From the IMG/VR virus record IMGVR_UViG_3300045935_000011, positions 1 through 31,848 of that record: a DNA stretch of 31,848 nt. The stretch is one strand, 5' to 3'. Position 1 is the stretch's first letter; each line of letters starts with the position of its first letter. This document shows, piece after piece, positions 2,954 to 30,505 of this stretch. The notes under the pieces were generated by a model. The model ran no database searches and was not told the origin of the DNA. It worked only from the letters and a program-made list of their open reading frames with translations. Position numbers and translations under genes: made by a program. The DNA comes from a virus.

Positions 2954-4858
2954 GAGCGCAGTCAGCGCCGGACTCATTGCCGCCCCGCCGCGCGCAATCA
3001 ATGCGAGGAATCTTTCGTTTCCGGGTTGCTGCGCCATCGTCATCAATGCGCCAGCTTTTGCCGGGTCGCGCATCAACGCTGCAAGCTGCGCCGACATTTC
3101 CATATTCGCGCGTCCGTATAGCGCATCGGCGCCGCGCGCGGCAATGTTTCCGCCTACCTGCGCTGCGCCAAGATTGCGCAGCCACGTCGGCACGCCAGCG
3201 GCATCGATGAAGTTGGAATAGGCGAGCTTCTTGACCGTATCCGAGCCCGCGGTTCCGGCCGAGTTCGTTGCAGTCACGGAGCGCTGCAAATCCTGTTTCA
3301 CCGCATTCAGCCGGTTCAGTTGCGCATTCGTCAGCGTGCCCTCAAGCGTCGCCTTGTTGAACCCGGTCGCGCTTGCCGCCGTTTTGTCCGTCAGATTGTT
3401 GATGAACTTGCCGGGCTCCAGCGTTCCGGTGACTTTGTTCGTTCCGCGGTCAAGTAGCGCCTGCGCGACTTCCATCTGGTTTATCGGCTTGCTCATGAGC
3501 GCGAATGTCGCGTTCGCTTTCGCATAGGCCGGGCTCAAGTCCTCGATCGTGGACATCAGATCGCCCTTGAACTGCGCAACGGCACGCTCGGTCTCTTTGC
3601 CGATGCCGGTCTGCTTGGCGCCAGATAGGATGTCGTCCACGCCTTTTTTGATCCAATGCAGGCCGTTGATGGAGCCCACCGGCCCCATCGCTTCGCCGTT
3701 GACGCGCGCGAGTTCCTTCGCCTTTTCCAGCACGCCCGCTGGCATCCGTTCCAGCAGATTCTCAATCTGAGGTTGCATGGCGATCGCCATTTGCTTGTCC
3801 ACGCCTTGCGCGCGGGCTGCGGCGTAGAGCCGATCCGCCATTACCGAGCGCTGCAATTCGGCCGCTTCCCGGTTTCCAGACGTGCCGGCAATGGCCTCAA
3901 CCTCGGCAATCCGGGCTGCATTCTGCGCTTTACGCTGCGCCCCGATCTCAACCGCAGCTGTTGGCTCTATTGCCGTTGCCGTGCGCTCTAGCGAGGCAAT
4001 GCCAGCATTACCGGACGCTTGCCCGACCGTAGGCATGGAGCCCGGCACAATCTCCCCTGCGACGGTCCTGGCAGCCTGCCCAGGCGCGGGAGGTCCGACG
4101 TAGGGCGCTCCAGCGGCACTCAGGCGCGCGGCAGCTTCGGGCGCATCGGCGCCGGCCACCCGGTTCAGCAAGCGGCCCATGATCGCCTCTCGCCCTTTGG
4201 CGTACAACGGTTCAGCCGCAGCCGAGGCAGCCTTGAAGGCCCCAACAGCGGCCGGCGCAGCAGCCGAGGCGCCGGCCCCGAGGCCAATATTGGTCAGCGT
4301 CTCGCCCGTACTGGTTGAAGGCTGCGCCGCGCCCATGCCTGCCCCGACGGCACCAGCGCCGGCAATCGTGCGCGGGGCGAGCAACGCGCCGCCGGCAAGT
4401 TCTGCCACTGGCGCAGCCAGCGCCCGCCCGGCGACTTTGAGCGCCCCGCCGGGCAGCAGCATCATGCCGACATTTCCGGCCACGTCCCCCGTAAATCCTC
4501 CGACCGTATTCATCAGCGGCGCATCGCGCGCGCGCGTCTCGGCGACTTGCTGGCGCATTTCCTCAACTCGGGAAAGAGGCTGCCCAGTAATCAATCCGCC
4601 CAATGTTTGCTTGCGCGGCGAGAGCAGATCAGCCGCGCCGGCGCCAATCTGCGCAAGCCCGGTGCCGGTATCGGAAATTGCCTTTCCGACTCCGATCAGC
4701 AAATTCCGGCCGAATGAATTGCCCTCAGTCGGATCGTCGGTTTGCGCCGGCTCAGCCTTTGCCGCCTGATATGCCTTCGCCACTGTGTCAAACTCAGGCG
4801 TGCCCTTTTTTGCCTGATTCTGGACGATCCAAGCAGCGTACTCGTCAGCCGTTGCCAT
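2933..4858 (-). CDS. Probable internal virion / DNA-ejection protein (641 aa)
   Basis: A 641-residue Ala-rich protein. Its N terminus (MATADEYAAWIVQNQAKKGT, then PEFDTVAKAYQAA) carries the Y-A-x-W-I/L-x-x-N-x-x-K-K-G-T-P-E-F motif repeatedly seen at the start of phage ejection proteins. Residues about 50-225 are Gly/Ala-rich and contain several hydrophobic segments (GGFTGDVAGNVGMMLLPGGA, GAGAVGAGMGAAQ) that could span a membrane. Residues about 300-560 are helical and charged. In P22-type and T7-type phages such proteins leave the capsid and form a conduit for DNA. It is the third of three large genes in a row and its ATG overlaps the TAA of the previous gene as TAATG. The specific P22 counterpart (gp16 or gp20) cannot be assigned by eye. 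Confidence 0.6.
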   Translation of the reverse strand: MATADEYAAWIVQNQAKKGTPEFDTVAKAYQAAKAEPAQTDDPTEGNSFGRNLLIGVGKAISDTGTGLAQIGAGAADLLSPRKQTLGGLITGQPLSRVEEMRQQVAETRARDAPLMNTVGGFTGDVAGNVGMMLLPGGALKVAGRALAAPVAELAGGALLAPRTIAGAGAVGAGMGAAQPSTSTGETLTNIGLGAGASAAAPAAVGAFKAASAAAEPLYAKGREAIMGRLLNRVAGADAPEAAARLSAAGAPYVGPPAPGQAARTVAGEIVPGSMPTVGQASGNAGIASLERTATAIEPTAAVEIGAQRKAQNAARIAEVEAIAGTSGNREAAELQRSVMADRLYAAARAQGVDKQMAIAMQPQIENLLERMPAGVLEKAKELARVNGEAMGPVGSINGLHWIKKGVDDILSGAKQTGIGKETERAVAQFKGDLMSTIEDLSPAYAKANATFALMSKPINQMEVAQALLDRGTNKVTGTLEPGKFINNLTDKTAASATGFNKATLEGTLTNAQLNRLNAVKQDLQRSVTATNSAGTAGSDTVKKLAYSNFIDAAGVPTWLRNLGAAQVGGNIAARGADALYGRANMEMSAQLAALMRDPAKAGALMTMAQQPGNERFLALIARGGAAMSPALTALLHAQQQ

Positions 4859-22545: not shown

Positions 22546-22733
22546 GCCGCCGCCTTCCGCGGTCGCCCAACCTTGCGCCCGGCCTGCGTCTTTCCCACGC
22601 GCACCCGATGCTCGCGGACGATTCTGGCCATGCAATCCCGGCAGTACGGCATGCGCCCATCCTTCGTGCTCCTGTTGTCGCCGAACGCGCGGCCGGGCAG
22701 TTTGGCTTGGCAGCCTGGGCACCACTTTTTCAC
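22542..22733 (-). CDS. Small zinc-ribbon protein (63 aa)
   Basis: A 63-residue protein with a GTG start at 22733 that overlaps the TGA of the helicase-methyltransferase gene (GTGA); its own stop overlaps the RuvC-like ATG. It reads KKWCPGCQAKLPGRAFGDNR, then STKDGRMPYCRDCMARIVRE and ends with a basic RVGRPRK-type tail. The C-P-x-C ... F-x-x-N-x-S-x-x-D-G-x-x-x-Y-C-x-x-C pattern is a standard four-Cys zinc ribbon, often seen in phage replication clusters and in the N termini of HNH proteins. No nuclease residues follow, so a DNA- or protein-binding adapter is the likeliest role. Confidence 0.7.
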   Translation of the reverse strand: MKKWCPGCQAKLPGRAFGDNRSTKDGRMPYCRDCMARIVREHRVRVGKTQAGRKVGRPRKAAA

Positions 22734-25354
22734 GCCGCTTCCTCGGCGCCTGGGTCATGCGTTTCCAAGCACGCGAACAAGTCAGGCGTCGCCATTTCGC
22801 GCGCAGCCATTTCGCAGTACGCAACCGCGTCGATGAAGTAGCGCGCACTCAGCTCGATCCCGATGCCGCGGCGCTTCAGCTTGATCGCGCGGAATACTAC
22901 TGTACCTAATCCGCTGAATGGATCAAGAACAGTTTCACCCTCCATGCTCCATTGCGCAATCGCGCGATCGGCCAAATCGAATTGCATAGGGCACAGATGC
23001 ATTTCTCGCCCCGCCGCCGACTGAGCGCCATTCAGTGTGAGCATGCGCGTGATGTCCGTCCACACATCCGGATGCCACGACTGCGGCTGCAACAACATGA
23101 ACGTGACCGGCAGCGTGCCTTTCGCTTCCATCGCCTCGCCGAGTTTTACATGATGCTCGAAGTCGTACACGTCGCGCAGCGAGAAATCGCGGAACAGTTT
23201 GAAAATCTGCGCGTGGTCCAGTTGCTCAAGCTCCGAGGGCATCAACAGCCGGTTGCCGGAACTGCGCGTGAAGCCGTGCGCGTCGATCTGCCAGCGCGAA
23301 CGCGAATAGCCAGTGCCTTGCTTCATCGGCTTGTTTCGATCGAAAGGAATCACGTTGCCTTCGGCATCCAAACTCAGCGGCTTAGGCTTCACTACCGGCA
23401 CATCGGCGTAGCTGTTCATGCGGTCCGTCGGCGGCTTGCGAAAGAGCAGCAGATATTCCGGCATCCCGACGCCCATCTTCGTGCCATCCTTGCATTGTTC
23501 CGACCAGCCGAGGCGATACGTTTGATTATTTTCGCGCACCACGTCGGTGACGATCGTTTTCATCCCCATGTAGCCGAAGCCGTGCTTGACGAAGTTCGCA
23601 ATCGTCGCGCAGTGGAACGGATACACGGTCTGGAACCCAATGCCGGTCATGCCGCTCGGCACGATGCGATCCTTGACGTGAATCGCAGCGAGGCGCCCAG
23701 GCTGCAGGACGCGCAACAATTCAGGCGTCAGGTAATCCATCTGCTCGAAAAATTGCGCGTTGTTGTCAGAGTGCCCGAAGTCGGCGTAGTTCGGCGAGTA
23801 CTCGTACTGCGTGCTGAACGGGATTGATGTAAGAATCAACCCCACGCTGTTATCAGCGTGCCGCTTCATTTCGACGACGGAATCATTGTTGATAAGCGTG
23901 AACCCGTCGCCAGCAACCTCAACCCGCTCCACGCCGATTGCCCGCGTCAACGAGTGCGCCATCGCCAGTTTGTTCAAGCCATATTCCTTGATGATCTCGC
24001 TCATTTTTTCCACCATGTGATTGTGCTGCGTCCATTTTCGCTCGAGCGTGCGCCGGATGTCGCGTTCGGCTTCTGAGTAAATCAGGTCGATGCGCACCGC
24101 ATGAGTTTGCAGGAACCTTTGAATCCGGTAACAGGCCTGGATGAAGTCGGCGAACTTGAAACCGACACCGAGGAATATCGCTTGATGGCAATGCCGCTGC
24201 CAGTTGACGCCCGAGCCTAACATCACCGGCTTGCCCGCTATTTCTCGAAACTCACCGTCAGAAAATCCGATGATGGATTTTTCCTTATGCTCATCGGTGT
24301 CCGCGCCGCGCACCGTGACGATGCCGGGAATCGCGTGTGCGATCGCATCGCGTTCAACCTCCAAATCGTGCCAGATGATGCGATGCGCGCCTGGATGCAG
24401 CGCGCGAACTTCCATCATCTTCGCAATGCGCTGCGGCAGGCTATCGCGTTTCTCGCGCGCAGAGTCGGATACGCCGATGGCGGAATTTTTGAAGAGGCGC
24501 CCCTGGCCCGCACGGTCAGGTAGCGCCGTGCTGTGGTCAGTCGGCACCTCGTGCCAGTGCACATCGAGCGGCGGCAGCGTGTAGCCCGCATCGTCGCAAC
24601 CGAGATCCGATGGCTTTTGCACGAACAGCGCCCATGATCCGATCCACAACCAGAATTCGCGCTCCTTGTGCGCGTGAATCGTCAACTTGTCCGCCTTCGT
24701 GCTGTCACGCTTGAAGAATCGCGTCTTTGCCGCCGACACATCCATGATGCCGAGGAAGGCCGAGTACGCCAGGAGCTCGATATACTCGTTGGGACTCGGC
24801 GTCGCAGTGGCCACGAAGCGATACTTCACGCCGCCGCTGCGCGTGCGCTCATTCAGCGTCTTACGATCGCCAGCAAAGAGCGCCATGAATTCGCGGAACG
24901 TCTTCGTGCCGCCGAACCCGCGCAGGATGCCGGCTTCATCCAGACTCGCCACGTCGAACACGGTCGGATTGAGCTTCCCATCGCGCACCGATTCGTAGTT
25001 CGTGATGTAGAGGCCGTCAGCGTCCACTTCGTCTGTGCGCCGAATGAACTTGATCTCAAGCCCGATCATGGCCGCGTCGCGTTTGAATTCGTGCCGCACG
25101 CCGAGCGGCGCCACGATCAAGCCTTTGCCGCCGCCGAGTTTGGCGAGAATCAGGCGCAGGATTTCAAGTTGCACCACGGATTTGCCAAGGCCGAACGCGG
25201 CGAAGATCGCCCGGCATCCACCACGCACCGCCCATTGCACCATGAGGCGTTGATGCGGTTTCAGAATTGGATTGATCTCCGAATCCTCGATCGAGAATCC
25301 AGAGTCTTGCGCCATCGTCACCTTGGCGCGCAGAAATTCGGCGTAGACGTCCAT
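22730..25354 (-). CDS. SF2 helicase-DNA (N6/N4) methyltransferase fusion
   Basis: An 874-residue two-domain protein. I choose the ATG at 25354 (MDVYAEFLRAKVTMAQDSGF) because this Y-x-x-F-L-x-x-K start fits the family; an ATG at 25315 with AAGG is the alternative. Residues 30-440 form a Snf2/SF2-like ATPase: FAAFGLGKSVVQLE (motif I, 51-64), ASLDEAGIL (II, 137-144), VATATPSPNEY (III, 181-191) and QACYRIQRF (VI, 406-414). Residues 480-874 form a methyltransferase with the catalytic motif first, LILTSIPFSTQYEYSP (509-516 core TSIPF, a variant of TSPPY), and the AdoMet loop last, LDPFSGLGTVVFRAIKLKRR (from 811). This is the beta-class order. It probably modifies phage DNA, with the ATPase acting in tracking or remodelling. 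The first P of the catalytic tetrad is Ile. Confidence 0.85.
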   Translation of the reverse strand: MDVYAEFLRAKVTMAQDSGFSIEDSEINPILKPHQRLMVQWAVRGGCRAIFAAFGLGKSVVQLEILRLILAKLGGGKGLIVAPLGVRHEFKRDAAMIGLEIKFIRRTDEVDADGLYITNYESVRDGKLNPTVFDVASLDEAGILRGFGGTKTFREFMALFAGDRKTLNERTRSGGVKYRFVATATPSPNEYIELLAYSAFLGIMDVSAAKTRFFKRDSTKADKLTIHAHKEREFWLWIGSWALFVQKPSDLGCDDAGYTLPPLDVHWHEVPTDHSTALPDRAGQGRLFKNSAIGVSDSAREKRDSLPQRIAKMMEVRALHPGAHRIIWHDLEVERDAIAHAIPGIVTVRGADTDEHKEKSIIGFSDGEFREIAGKPVMLGSGVNWQRHCHQAIFLGVGFKFADFIQACYRIQRFLQTHAVRIDLIYSEAERDIRRTLERKWTQHNHMVEKMSEIIKEYGLNKLAMAHSLTRAIGVERVEVAGDGFTLINNDSVVEMKRHADNSVGLILTSIPFSTQYEYSPNYADFGHSDNNAQFFEQMDYLTPELLRVLQPGRLAAIHVKDRIVPSGMTGIGFQTVYPFHCATIANFVKHGFGYMGMKTIVTDVVRENNQTYRLGWSEQCKDGTKMGVGMPEYLLLFRKPPTDRMNSYADVPVVKPKPLSLDAEGNVIPFDRNKPMKQGTGYSRSRWQIDAHGFTRSSGNRLLMPSELEQLDHAQIFKLFRDFSLRDVYDFEHHVKLGEAMEAKGTLPVTFMLLQPQSWHPDVWTDITRMLTLNGAQSAAGREMHLCPMQFDLADRAIAQWSMEGETVLDPFSGLGTVVFRAIKLKRRGIGIELSARYFIDAVAYCEMAAREMATPDLFACLETHDPGAEEAA

Positions 25355-25685: not shown

Positions 25686-26330
25686 TGCACACATCTGCAC
25701 AGGGTTATAACCCCCTGTGCAGTGCTGTGCATGATTTCCTCGACGCACAAAAACGCACTTGTGCACGATTTGTGCATTTCTGTGCACGGTCAAATTAACC
25801 ACCAGAAACCGGCTTCATTTCCAGCGAGTTTTGCGGCCTCAATTTGATCCTGCGCGCGGGTAAATGCCATACGCCTAGCGTTGTGCATGCGGCTTGCTTC
25901 TTTCTCTTTAATATCTGTTTTTATTGGTCTTTTACGGAAGTAAGCGTCCTGCCATTGTTCGACACGGACGGCCCGACACGCGGGGAGGATTGACGTTGCC
26001 GGAATGTTCTCGCCAGACTCCGCGATTGTGGCCTTGAGAACATCGAAAACGACTTGTGCACTGGCGTTGATTTGGCGTTTGTGCGAGTTGTGCTTTGAGA
26101 CTGAGGCGAGGTTGTGCTGCACAAGGCAAGTTGTGCACTTTTCGCCGTCCGAATCTACCCCGATTTCCACGACTTCTAGATCGAACGGGAACACGTCCTC
26201 ACTTGTTCCGTCGCGCACTTTCATGACCGTCGCGACCTTGCCGACAACGGAAATGACGCAATCTGCGGCGGCCTGGAGGGTCGAACTGCCGCGCGGCCTG
26301 TCGGTCACTTCGTTCCCTGTATGGTGCACA
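25686..26330. repeat. TGTGCA/TGCACA repeat array (12 copies)
   Basis: Copies start at 25686, 25696, 25716, 25726, 25760, 25771, 25781, 25882, 26055, 26118, 26132 and 26325. Those at 25686, 25696, 26118 and 26325 read TGCACA and the rest read TGTGCA. Written in one direction, eleven of twelve are preceded by a pyrimidine, giving YTGTGCA. The first seven lie within 101 bases with steps of 10, 20, 10, 34, 11 and 10, so most face the same side of the helix. By chance about 0.3 copies are expected in this length. The last five lie within the 3' two fifths of the RepA-type gene. This is typical of iterons or of a cooperative operator array. Confidence 0.75.
25695..25722. repeat. Inverted repeat inside the TGTGCA array
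   Basis: CTGCACAGGG (25695-25704) and CCCTGTGCAG (25713-25722) are perfect inverted arms around TTATAACC; the core GGGTTATAACCC (25702-25713) is itself a palindrome. Each arm contains one copy of the array motif, so the two sites face each other. It could be a dimer binding site, a DNA-unwinding hairpin or, less likely, a terminator for the RepA-type transcript. Confidence 0.6.
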
Positions 26331-26974
26331 ACAACCGTCCCGGCGCCCAATTCGTCCCTGATTTCGTCCGCGGCGCGAATGGCGCGGGTCATATCCTCGG
26401 CCTTGTTTTCGTCCCCGCCCGGCATTGAACGGCTGAGCGTGTCGAACACCACGAGCGCAGTGGACATCCCCACTTCCTTGGAAATATCGCGCAATTCCTC
26501 AATTAAGTTGCCCACTTCCTCCAGATTCATGAGGTTTGTTCCGCGGGTCAGGATGACAAGCGGGGTTCTGGCGGCGAGTTCGCCAACATGGCGCGATCGC
26601 CACGCAATGAAACGATTTATGACGCCCGCGCCGGCCTCGGCGGCGACATAGACCACCAGGCCGGGCTTGACGCGCCGGCCGCGCCACGGCGCCCCGGTTG
26701 CAATGCTGTACACCATGTCAATGGTGAAAAACGTCTTTCCGTCCCCGGATGGACCATAAATGACATGGAACGCGGCACGCTCAATCAATCCCTTAATGAG
26801 GTAATCCCGGTCCAGATTGAGTACGGCATCGTCCACCCAGACGCGATATGGGTGCTTGTCCTCGCCGTTGCCGCCGAGGTCCTTGCGTTTGCGCTGCCAG
26901 CGATTGAGAGCTTCCTCGTCCCGATCTGGCCCCGGCGCTGGTTCATCGCTCATAGGCGGCCTGGGCGATACCAT
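25790..26974 (-). CDS. RepA-type hexameric replicative helicase (AAA_25 ATPase)
   Basis: A 394-residue ATPase. An SD (GGAG, seven bases) favours the ATG at 26974; an ATG at 26953 (MSDEPAPGPD) would reduce the overlap with the zinc-finger gene. The RecA-like core has Walker A GPSGDGKTFF (74-83), an AEAGAGVINRF motif (112-122), Walker B STALVVFDTLSRSMPGGDEN (171-190) and a VVVHHTGN sensor loop (214-221), then RGSSTLQAAADCVISV. These are features of the RSF1010 RepA/AAA_25 group of ring helicases, also found in phages. The C-terminal 120 residues look helical and winged-helix-like. It probably unwinds DNA at the nearby repeat-rich region. Its 3' coding part carries five TGTGCA-type motifs. Confidence 0.75.
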   Translation of the reverse strand: MVSPRPPMSDEPAPGPDRDEEALNRWQRKRKDLGGNGEDKHPYRVWVDDAVLNLDRDYLIKGLIERAAFHVIYGPSGDGKTFFTIDMVYSIATGAPWRGRRVKPGLVVYVAAEAGAGVINRFIAWRSRHVGELAARTPLVILTRGTNLMNLEEVGNLIEELRDISKEVGMSTALVVFDTLSRSMPGGDENKAEDMTRAIRAADEIRDELGAGTVVVHHTGNEVTDRPRGSSTLQAAADCVISVVGKVATVMKVRDGTSEDVFPFDLEVVEIGVDSDGEKCTTCLVQHNLASVSKHNSHKRQINASAQVVFDVLKATIAESGENIPATSILPACRAVRVEQWQDAYFRKRPIKTDIKEKEASRMHNARRMAFTRAQDQIEAAKLAGNEAGFWWLI

Positions 26975-27365
26975 TCAGGCGCTCCACGGCCTTGAACAGC
27001 CTTTCATAGTCGGACTCGGTAACGCTGCGCTGTTTGTGTATGTCGGCTGCAATGACCGCGGCGACACCGATCTCCCGCCGGGCAATGTCGAACACGTCGG
27101 ACGGAAAAAACGGCGGCCTTCGGCCTGGGTAGTTGACTGGCAGCCGGTCAGGGAATAAATCCTCAAAAGTCAGATCGACGGCATCCAACACGGCCTGCAC
27201 CTCGCAGCCGGCGAAACAGTGCGCCAGCACCAATCCATTTCCGGCGTAGGTGACTTTCAGGCTTGGAGATTTGTCCTTGTGCGCCGGGCAACGCGCCATC
27301 CACGTGTCGCGCCCAGTGTTGCGCACACCCTGCAATCGTGAAAGCAGTAAATCGACATTTGCCAT
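26943..27365 (-). CDS. Stand-alone CHC2-type primase zinc-finger protein
   Basis: A 140-residue protein with AGGAAGG before the ATG at 27365. The N-terminal half is the zinc-binding domain of DnaG-like primases: DTWMARCPAHKDKSPSLKV gives Cys26 and His29, and GLVLAHCFAGCEVQAVLDAV gives Cys50 and Cys54, followed by the usual L-x-L-x-x-x-D-L-F-P ending. The remaining 70 residues are helical (VFDIARREIGVAAVIAADIH) and contain no TOPRIM or catalytic primase core. It is the neighbour of a ring helicase, which suggests a phage primosome in which the zinc finger is a separate subunit. The catalytic primase may be a host or another phage protein outside this window. Confidence 0.8.
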   Translation of the reverse strand: MANVDLLLSRLQGVRNTGRDTWMARCPAHKDKSPSLKVTYAGNGLVLAHCFAGCEVQAVLDAVDLTFEDLFPDRLPVNYPGRRPPFFPSDVFDIARREIGVAAVIAADIHKQRSVTESDYERLFKAVERLNGIAQAAYER

Positions 27366-28780: not shown

Positions 28781-29095
28781 TTACTCCAGCCGGAAAAGCC
28801 GCCGCACGGCCTCAGGAGGCGTGCCCGTGGGCATCCGTTGCCGGTATTCCGTCGCCCGCATCGTCGGCAGCGGCTTGGAACTTGGCCCGATCTCGTAGCT
28901 GTAAATCCGGCCGTTGCGATCGGAGCGCCCGGCATAGACCTGATGCACGAGGCCCTCGTTCCGCAGATCGCAAAGCCAGCTCCTGAGCGTGCGCTCGTGC
29001 GGCCCGCCCAATTCCGCGCCGAGCTGATCGAGAGTCAGCGGGCCCAGGCGGCGCAGAATCGGCGGGATCAGAGATTTCAATTCGGCGGTGTCCAA
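28781..29095 (-). CDS. Winged-helix DNA-binding protein
   Basis: About 104 residues, read from a TTG at 29095 or from a TTG at 29080 that overlaps the TGA of the VWA gene (TTGA). No ATG or GTG is available upstream without deep overlap with VWA, so the start is uncertain. The core ELKSLIPPILRRLGPLTLDQ, then LGAELGGPHERTLRSWLCDL and RNEGLVHQVYAGRSDRNGRI, is a typical helix-turn-helix plus wing (D-Q-L-A/G-x-x-L-G-x-x-x-R-T-L-x-x-W-L-x-x-L-x-x-x-G-L-V). Such small phage proteins can act as transcription regulators or as replication accessory DNA binders. It lies between VWA and the C5 methyltransferase, all in one reading direction. Confidence 0.6.
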   Translation of the reverse strand: MDTAELKSLIPPILRRLGPLTLDQLGAELGGPHERTLRSWLCDLRNEGLVHQVYAGRSDRNGRIYSYEIGPSSKPLPTMRATEYRQRMPTGTPPEAVRRLFRLE

Positions 29096-29787
29096 GCCTG
29101 CGTCGGTTTCGGTTCCCTCAACGGTTGCGTGGCAGCAGGTACAGCCTCCTTTTGGCCCGCCAGCGTCAACGTACCGTCTTCCCCAATGTTCCCGCCAAGG
29201 TCTTGTGCAACAGTTTGGCCGCTCGCGCGCATCACGCCCACAGTACCGGACGCTTTCGCGTACATCTGCATGATGCCTCTTGTTGAGTTGACATATCCAG
29301 CCGTATTCGCGCCATGTATCCCCATCGTTCCAGCTTCGGCGAACGCGTCCACGTTCGCGCCCAGGTAGATAAACGCCCACTTGCCTGAGTCTTGCCGTGC
29401 CTTGACCATTTCCTGAATCTTGGTCTTCGTGTATTCGTGCGACGCGTTTTCCTCGCCGTCGGTCACGATCACCACGATGGCGCGCTCTGGTTGCTCGCTC
29501 TTCCAATCGTCGTCAAGCTGCGTAACGGTCGTGCCAATCGCATCCAGCAATGGCGTTCCACCGCGCGGCTTGTAGTCTGCCGCGGTCAACGGTTTGCACT
29601 CTGCCAATGCTTGCATGGGGCGAAAGCGCTCCGTCGCCTCGGTGTCGAATCGAACCAAGGAAATACTGGCCGGGTCGGGCAATTTCTTTTGCTCGTCAAG
29701 AAACGAATTGACCCCTCCGATTACATCATTCTCGCGTCCGGCCATCGATCCGCTGCGATCCAGAATCATACAGATCATGCTTTTCAT
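29077..29787 (-). CDS. von Willebrand factor A (VWA) domain protein
   Basis: A 236-residue protein with AAGGAG six bases before the ATG at 29787. The VWA metal-ion site is complete: MICMILDRSGSMAGREND gives D10-x-S12-x-S14, YKPRGGTPLLDAIG gives Thr78, and VIVTDGEENASHEY gives Asp110. The next strand KWAFIYLGANVDAFAEAGTM is typical of the bacterial and phage cytosolic VWA group, and the tail from residue 190 is flexible and Pro/Gln-rich. VWA domains bind partner proteins through a divalent metal, often AAA ATPases. No MoxR-type partner is coded nearby. It is embedded in the early operon with small zinc proteins and methylase. Its role in the phage is unknown. Confidence 0.8.
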   Translation of the reverse strand: MKSMICMILDRSGSMAGRENDVIGGVNSFLDEQKKLPDPASISLVRFDTEATERFRPMQALAECKPLTAADYKPRGGTPLLDAIGTTVTQLDDDWKSEQPERAIVVIVTDGEENASHEYTKTKIQEMVKARQDSGKWAFIYLGANVDAFAEAGTMGIHGANTAGYVNSTRGIMQMYAKASGTVGVMRASGQTVAQDLGGNIGEDGTLTLAGQKEAVPAATQPLREPKPTQAWTPPN

Positions 29788-29920
29788 TGCTGACTCCTTG
29801 CACAAATAAACTAGCAACCTGATACGCGGTTGCAACCGTAGTGCCGTAGAGTAGGCACAAATCCTTTACGAATTCTGCAATTTCCTTTTCCGTAGGGCGC
29901 GGCGGGATGTCGTTTTTCAC
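29726..29920 (-). CDS. 64-residue protein overlapping the VWA start
   Basis: A frame starting at a GTG (29920) that overlaps the TGA of the Cys-rich gene as GTGA, with GGAG upstream. It runs 62 bases into the VWA gene in another frame. The first 45 residues look genuine (KNDIPPRPTEKEIAEFVKDL, then CLLYGTTVATAYQVASLFVQ), with a helical profile; the final part after GVSNEKHDLYDSG lies in the overlap and is less protein-like. I recognise no family. The coupled start is the best evidence. Confidence 0.5.
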   Translation of the reverse strand: MKNDIPPRPTEKEIAEFVKDLCLLYGTTVATAYQVASLFVQGVSNEKHDLYDSGSQRIDGRTRE

Positions 29921-30123: not shown

Positions 30124-30317
30124 TCCTCGTCCCCAAAACACTGCACGCCAAAAAAATCAGCCGCGCACCGATCGCAGAAAGCCGCGCCGATCCTGCCGCC
30201 TTGCTGAAATAATCGCAACGGACAGCCGTCCTCAGGCAGCGCCGCGTTGCAGTACGAACAGGTGTCCTCGGTGAACTCGCACCACCGAATCCGCGCCGGA
30301 TCGCCAGTGAAATTCAT
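30120..30317 (-). CDS. Small Cys-rich protein (65 aa), probable zinc binder
   Basis: A 65-residue protein starting at the ATG at 30317, again in ATGA overlap with the gene before. It reads MNFTGDPARIRWCEFTEDTC, then SYCNAALPEDGCPLRLFQQG and ends AAFCDRCAADFFGVQCFGDEE. Two CxxC pairs (TCSYC and FCDRC) plus further cysteines fit a compact zinc ribbon. A longer frame to 30566 crosses the HTH gene and was rejected. It is the second gene of the leftward early operon. Confidence 0.6.
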   Translation of the reverse strand: MNFTGDPARIRWCEFTEDTCSYCNAALPEDGCPLRLFQQGGRIGAAFCDRCAADFFGVQCFGDEE

Positions 30318-30505
30318 GCCGGTTTCGGCCCGCGCTTGAATAGCTGCGGGTATTTGGCTGAATTCGGCACGAACCAATCGCGCCCGACCTTTATCGCACC
30401 CTTGATGCGCCCCTTGCGGCAGAGCACGCGCACCCAGATTTGCGACACACTCCACTGAGCCGCAGCCTGCGCTGTAGATTGCATTTTTGTTGGGTCCATG
30501 CGCAT
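30314..30505 (-). CDS. Excisionase/MerR-type helix-turn-helix DNA-binding protein
   Basis: A 63-residue basic protein starting at the ATG at 30505 (a second ATG is at 30499). The pattern MQSTAQAAAQWSVSQIWVRV, then LCRKGRIKGAIKVGRDWFVP, is the HTH_17-type winged helix of excisionase and MerR-like proteins (S-T-x-x-A-A-x-x-x-x-V-S-x-x-x-V-x-x-L-C-R-x-G-R-I-x-G-A-x-K-V-G-R-x-W-x-I/V-P). It is the first gene of the leftward early operon, adjacent to a divergent promoter region, so it may regulate that region. No integrase is visible, so an excision role cannot be claimed. Confidence 0.7.
   Translation of the reverse strand: MRMDPTKMQSTAQAAAQWSVSQIWVRVLCRKGRIKGAIKVGRDWFVPNSAKYPQLFKRGPKPA

Follow-up and report, generated by a model that had tools for sequence, protein, structure and literature searches.

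In a 31,848-bp virus record from IMG/VR, analyzed over its full length and called the window below, a cluster of TGTGCA repeats lies directly behind the gene of a RepA-type ring helicase. We read these repeats as an iteron array that forms a replication origin, with the neighboring helicase itself as the initiator, and give this reading a probability of roughly three in four. In relatives, the array keeps its place and spacing and changes its word, the word covaries with the third helix of the helicase C-terminal domain, and the motor is RepA-like. More broadly, we lean toward the existence of an undescribed, widespread class of self-initiating RecA-fold helicases in tailed phages and in plasmid and prophage relatives, in which a winged helix would read the array behind its own gene and a few helix residues would set the word. 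For many phages, little has been described of how RecA-fold ring helicases reach their origins, and such origins have rarely been mapped.

The TGTGCA array and its neighbors in the window

An earlier note on this DNA had described 12 TGTGCA/TGCACA sites between 25686 and 26330, and an exact-word count found all of them exactly as placed (Table 1). Seven lie within 101 bp of the noncoding stretch that separates the helicase stop (25790) from the following gene, whose start was taken as the ATG near 25354, giving an inferred gap of ~435 bp. The steps between neighboring core sites are 10, 20, 10, 34, 11, and 10 bp, all but one of them close to a multiple of the helical turn, in agreement with the phasing that had been claimed. 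The inverted repeat was also recovered, with sites 25696(-) and 25716(+) facing one another around GGGTTATAACCC at 25702..25713, and the remaining five sites do reach into the 3' end of the helicase gene.

The TGTGCA cluster is the largest among all 6-mers of the window at both 645 bp and 101 bp. The counts of 12 per 645 bp and 7 per 101 bp were never attained in 200 simulated windows (first-order Markov), in which the maxima were 11 and 5, respectively. In the whole window, the word was found 20 times against 17.9 expected. TGTGCA is therefore clustered without global enrichment, and the equal frequency elsewhere that the earlier note had named as a refutation was not seen. A role of the word as a phage-wide signal was ruled out, with no enrichment outside the array. 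GC skew across the window gave no useful signal for the array. An intrinsic terminator at the central hairpin was not favored, as the palindromes, inspected by eye, are followed by no consistent T-run.

Table 1. Features of the window around the repeat array
Feature	Position	Strand	Basis or remark
Core array, seven TGTGCA sites, putative origin	25686..25786	.	Same place in relatives
TGTGCA/TGCACA sites, first seven	25686(-), 25696(-), 25716(+), 25726(+), 25760(+), 25771(+), 25781(+)		Word count
TGTGCA/TGCACA sites, last five	25882(+), 26055(+), 26118(-), 26132(+), 26325(-)		Word count
Inverted repeat, two facing sites around GGGTTATAACCC, putative melting/assembly center	25695..25722	.	Relatives also have central palindromes
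Five TGTGCA sites within the 3' part of the helicase gene (last 540 bp)	25882..26330	.	
RepA-type (RecA-fold, AAA_25) ring helicase, 387 aa	25790..26953	-	Pfam AAA_25 1.7e-35; predicted structure most similar to RSF1010 RepA
Predicted winged helix at the helicase C-terminus, residues ~297-387, candidate array binder	25793..26065	-	AlphaFold2 model
Third (recognition) helix, residues 350-373, codons	25835..25906	-	M362, A363, T365, and R366 covary most with the word
Short protein with CHC2/DnaG-type primase zinc finger, overlaps helicase start	26943..27365	-	
Helicase/N4-N6 methylase fusion, next gene downstream of the array	22730..25354	-	

The zinc-finger protein matched phrog_6088 (DNA primase, 7e-14) and Pfam Zn_ribbon_DnaG at 3.3e-5, just below the cut-off, and the neighbors of the helicase that were scanned with Pfam showed no TOPRIM domain. 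The methylase fusion joins a phage helicase-like part to an N4/N6 DNA methylase; its relatives in Pseudomonas phages (e.g., phi297) share ~69% of the DNA sequence. In the phage early region, the gene at 29077..29835 encodes a VWA-domain protein of phrog_7371, a family that leaves its function unassigned.

Repeat arrays behind helicase genes in relatives

As the earlier note had expected of close relatives, the array is kept at the same place, with a different word. In the nearest relative, an IMG/VR phage (L002) with a helicase 69% identical to that of the window, nine TGCGCA sites follow the helicase stop and four lie inside the gene, and TGTGCA is absent from the array region. Three of the in-gene sites have close counterparts, near -348, -334, and -271 from the stop in the window and near -353, -334, and -276 in L002. 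One shared in-gene site, when aligned, reads AAG-TGC-ACA in the window versus ATG-CGC-ACA in L002, and the word has thus changed together with the encoded amino acids.

Distant relatives with 23-34% helicase identity, which are phages or plasmid-prophages of Alpha-, Beta-, and Gammaproteobacteria, carry arrays of other words straight after the helicase stop. The words across the window and its relatives, which often end in ACA, include TGTGCA, TGCGCA, GCGTGACA, GGGACA, CAGACA, CATACA, and GGAACA, among others. Among members of the Rhizobium phage 16-3 clade, whose helicases share 55-100% identity, the word switches among GCGTGACA, CGGGACA, CCAGACA, CCATACA, CCGGACA, and ATGGACA. Most array carriers found are tailed phages or prophages, and many of the relatives' helicases are about 660-780 aa long with an N-terminal primase part.

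We then counted repeats behind dereplicated RSF1010-RepA-like helicase genes. At least six copies of some 6-mer were present within 250 bp downstream of the stop codon in 66 of 100 such loci, compared with 1 of 560 control ORF ends; the Fisher p of about 5e-64 is nominal because related loci are not fully independent, and the effect size is what matters. Among the 172 helicase loci with enough downstream sequence, the interval at the helicase stop held the strongest 6-mer cluster of the locus in 131, and in six complete phage or plasmid-prophage records the array was the top repeat cluster of the entire element. The spacing mode over relatives was 9-10 bp for sites in the same orientation and about 20 bp for sites in opposite orientation, indicating that helical phasing is a property of the family. 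The place, the ~9-10-bp spacing, and the two-sided layout recur, as do central palindromes. A conserved array sequence was rejected, since blastn with the array region gave no relevant phage match. The conserved features are thus place, spacing, and layout, not sequence. Among the six complete relatives, the GC skew minimum lay near the array in only one, Caenibius p1, at a distance of 831 bp.

The earlier note had proposed a phage replication origin beside a RepA-type helicase, with the array bound by a separate, undescribed initiator. The first part gains strong comparative evidence from the counts of 131/172 and 66/100 loci, and to judge from these sequences the array very probably serves as the phage replication origin. 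The same comparison bears on two other roles. Operators that regulate transcription of the helicase operon or the gene that follows could look alike, since phased repeat clusters can be repressor sites and the array in the window lies upstream of a co-oriented gene. However, the array stays at the helicase 3' end even though different genes follow it from locus to locus, and the next annotated gene is in the opposite orientation in 16-3 and in a Xanthobacter plasmid. The array also reaches into the helicase gene, and 10-19 copies are common among array loci. An operator function is therefore quite improbable. We put still less weight on a site for partition (parS), packaging (cos/pac), or recombination. 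Such sites can likewise be repeat arrays next to phage genes, but the annotated cos of phage 16-3 is about 3.5 kb off, the ParA gene is about 7-11 kb off in the M. currus and FF17 plasmids, and the array is linked to the helicase.

Several other elements were observed in or beside arrays. Of 70 array loci, 30 had a strand-specific hairpin with a C-TTTA-G loop (e.g., CACCCCTTTAGGGGTG) within the array or next to it, and only 3 had CTAAAG; among 552 control windows, the numbers were 17 and 33, respectively. This orientation bias suggests a single-strand signal. The hairpin is real in relatives, though absent from the window, and for this reason does not form part of the core claim. In Escherichia phage SECphi18 (L188, Dhillonvirus), seven GCGGGACA repeats at 2975-3085 follow the helicase-primase gene (stop 2816), and a small annotated ORF (gp06) overlaps them; they are surrounded by ATTGGTTGCC/A repeats in both orientations, and the C-terminus of this helicase-primase is unlike a winged helix. 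Genes of more distant AAA ATPases whose C-terminus is of another, HTH-like kind (L062, L068, L070, and L074) are also followed by 6-mer arrays, of GGAAAC, AGTTGC, CGCAAC, and GTTGCA. The circular plasmid pKp_Goe_795-4 (L183, 16,971 bp) carries the same helicase-array module with the word TGCGGCA, together with genes for an integrase, capsid, head-tail adaptor, tape measure, and terminase; it could be either a small prophage or a satellite that forms its own capsids.

The helicase C-terminal domain and the repeat word

The best structural matches of the modeled helicase motor were RSF1010 RepA structures 1nlf and 1g8y (E 3e-10), and by this model the protein is a RecA-fold, RSF1010 RepA-like and putatively hexameric helicase. 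Its last ~90 residues form a domain separate from the motor (AlphaFold2 mean pLDDT, 85), with the predicted order helix-strand-helix-helix-strand-strand, which is a winged-helix topology. Pfam and PDB sequence searches assigned this domain to no Pfam family and no PDB entry, and its structural match to solved winged helices (CAP, PrfA, and ORC) was weak, with a best E of 0.25. Presence of a recognizable C-terminal domain predicted array presence as a nonsignificant trend only (Fisher p = 0.09). The domain was present without a detected array in 22 dereplicated loci, and array loci L016, L026, and L151 have another C-terminus. Among helicases without a detected array, those of L014, L025, L163, L164, and L169 end in acidic tails (ETFDDIPFD, FAAEDFDPMDM, ...DYEKF) that recall the SSB tip; such tails might provide these array-less helicases with another recruitment route.

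We compared the repeat word with the domain sequence in 84 array loci. Word similarity correlated with C-terminal-domain identity, given ATPase identity, with a small partial r of 0.126 (p = 0.0005 over pairs of loci), a value unmatched in 2,000 permutations. By contrast, the correlation with ATPase identity, given the C-terminal domain, was -0.01. In pairs with an 80-100% identical ATPase domain, C-terminal identity was 62% for the same word versus 38% for different words. The most strongly covarying columns all belong to the third helix (Table 1), and this helix, its boundaries having been fixed after the per-column result was viewed, remains predictive of the word when the remainder of the domain is controlled for, and likewise for the wing. 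The word is in step with a C-terminal helix, and the helicase thus probably recognizes its own start site.

Could this covariation reflect physical linkage only, with gene end and array swapped together and the domain playing no part in reading the word? The coding sequence of the domain directly adjoins the array, so that linked exchange contributes to the covariation, and the partial correlations are modest. However, the third helix is a better predictor of the word than the rest of the domain and than the wing, although the codons of the wing are closer to the array. The per-column differences are largest at helix positions, and the third-helix signal persists among pairs with ATPase identity below 40% (p = 0.003). 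These results argue that the covariation is not mere linkage, and we consider an account by linkage alone unlikely.

The covariation also weighs on the earlier note's separate initiator. A small protein of the RepC or lambda-O kind, or a small HTH protein, could bind the array and hand over the helicase as in RSF1010, which has a separate RepC (PMC4234260). Small HTH proteins are encoded in the window (HTH_17, 30314..30505) and upstream of the helicase in several relatives, and some array loci have no recognizable C-terminal domain. Against such an initiator stand the covariation of the word with the helicase third helix and the variation of annotated helicase neighbors between loci; no RepC (PF06504) match was found in the window record or the L002 record, and control genomes were equally silent. 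The HTH_17 protein, ~4 kb from the array, is the weaker candidate, and the DnaA-C-like protein suggested as another possible binder has no counterpart among the ten window proteins scanned with Pfam. The winged helix of the helicase is the best candidate reader, and the proposal of a separate initiator, which we regard as improbable, is probably wrong.

With the helicase as its own initiator, the process that we infer comprises binding, ring loading, melting, and origin activity. The C-terminal winged helix would bind repeats about one helical turn apart, lining up several helicase subunits along the duplex to either side of the AT/palindromic center. Rings would assemble at this center, the duplex would then open there, and the CHC2-type primase would be recruited after opening. 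The repeat word, to judge from its variants, may consist of about four variable bases, commonly followed by ACA, and be set by a few residues of one helix, in which case origin specificity could change quickly between close relatives. With the reader encoded next to its site, the two can shift their specificity jointly. If this is true, origin specificity could be read from protein sequence, and in phages that have this type of helicase the origin could often be located from sequence alone, with the helicase as initiator. The many natural word switches would also provide ready-made data for studying DNA recognition by winged helices.

Comparison with known initiator helicases

SaPI-type Rep is an AAA+/SF3-D5-like helicase. 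Its C-terminal domain binds iterons directly downstream of its own gene (PMC7581432), and SaPI/PICI origins have two iteron sets around an AT-rich segment, with allelic origin words (PMC7581432, PMC6092414). This layout is also that of Gram-negative PICIs, in which replication function was tested, as for EcCICFT073, and the authors described it as shared by no other known bacterial replicon (PMC6092414). In the present system, too, repeats lie directly 3' of the helicase gene and the words are allelic. The candidate reader is the C-terminal domain, for which a winged helix was predicted and covariation with the word observed. Unlike the AAA+/SF3-type proteins, the window helicase has the RecA fold of AAA_25, and the carriers found are mostly tailed phages or prophages.

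P4 alpha is a primase-helicase whose C-terminal winged helix binds origin iterons (PMC4234260). The window helicase likewise has a predicted winged helix, and many of its relatives have an N-terminal primase part. P4 alpha, however, combines an SF3 helicase with a fused TOPRIM primase, whereas the window motor is of the RecA fold and the zinc finger is on a separate protein. SCCmec Cch2, a self-loading helicase candidate, has a C-terminal domain that binds short direct repeats just downstream of its gene (PMC7581432); unlike the window helicase, it belongs to a different helicase family, with only three iterons and no word switching described. In pRN1, ORF904 has a C-terminal winged helix and acts at a structure that immediately follows its gene (PMC4234260), but it is an archaeal SF3 protein with a stem-loop origin without iterons.

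RSF1010 provides the closest solved structures of the motor and has an iteron origin. The earlier note's comparison with this plasmid holds for the helicase fold and not for the three-protein layout: RSF1010 has a separate RepC and a RepA without such a C-terminal domain, whereas here a helicase-fused domain is the candidate reader. The RSF1010 primase RepB' acts at ssi hairpins, and the neighboring primase-like protein of the window is of the CHC2/DnaG type.

In the open literature searched, we found no description of RecA-fold phage helicases with downstream iterons. The present system is set apart from SaPI Rep, P4 alpha, and SCCmec Cch2 because its helicase type differs. If our reading is true, the layout of an initiator helicase with downstream iterons arose in a motor family unrelated to the AAA+ satellite helicases. 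An initiator helicase with downstream iterons is known from these systems; new here would be its combination with a RecA-fold, RSF1010-RepA-like motor and a switching word.
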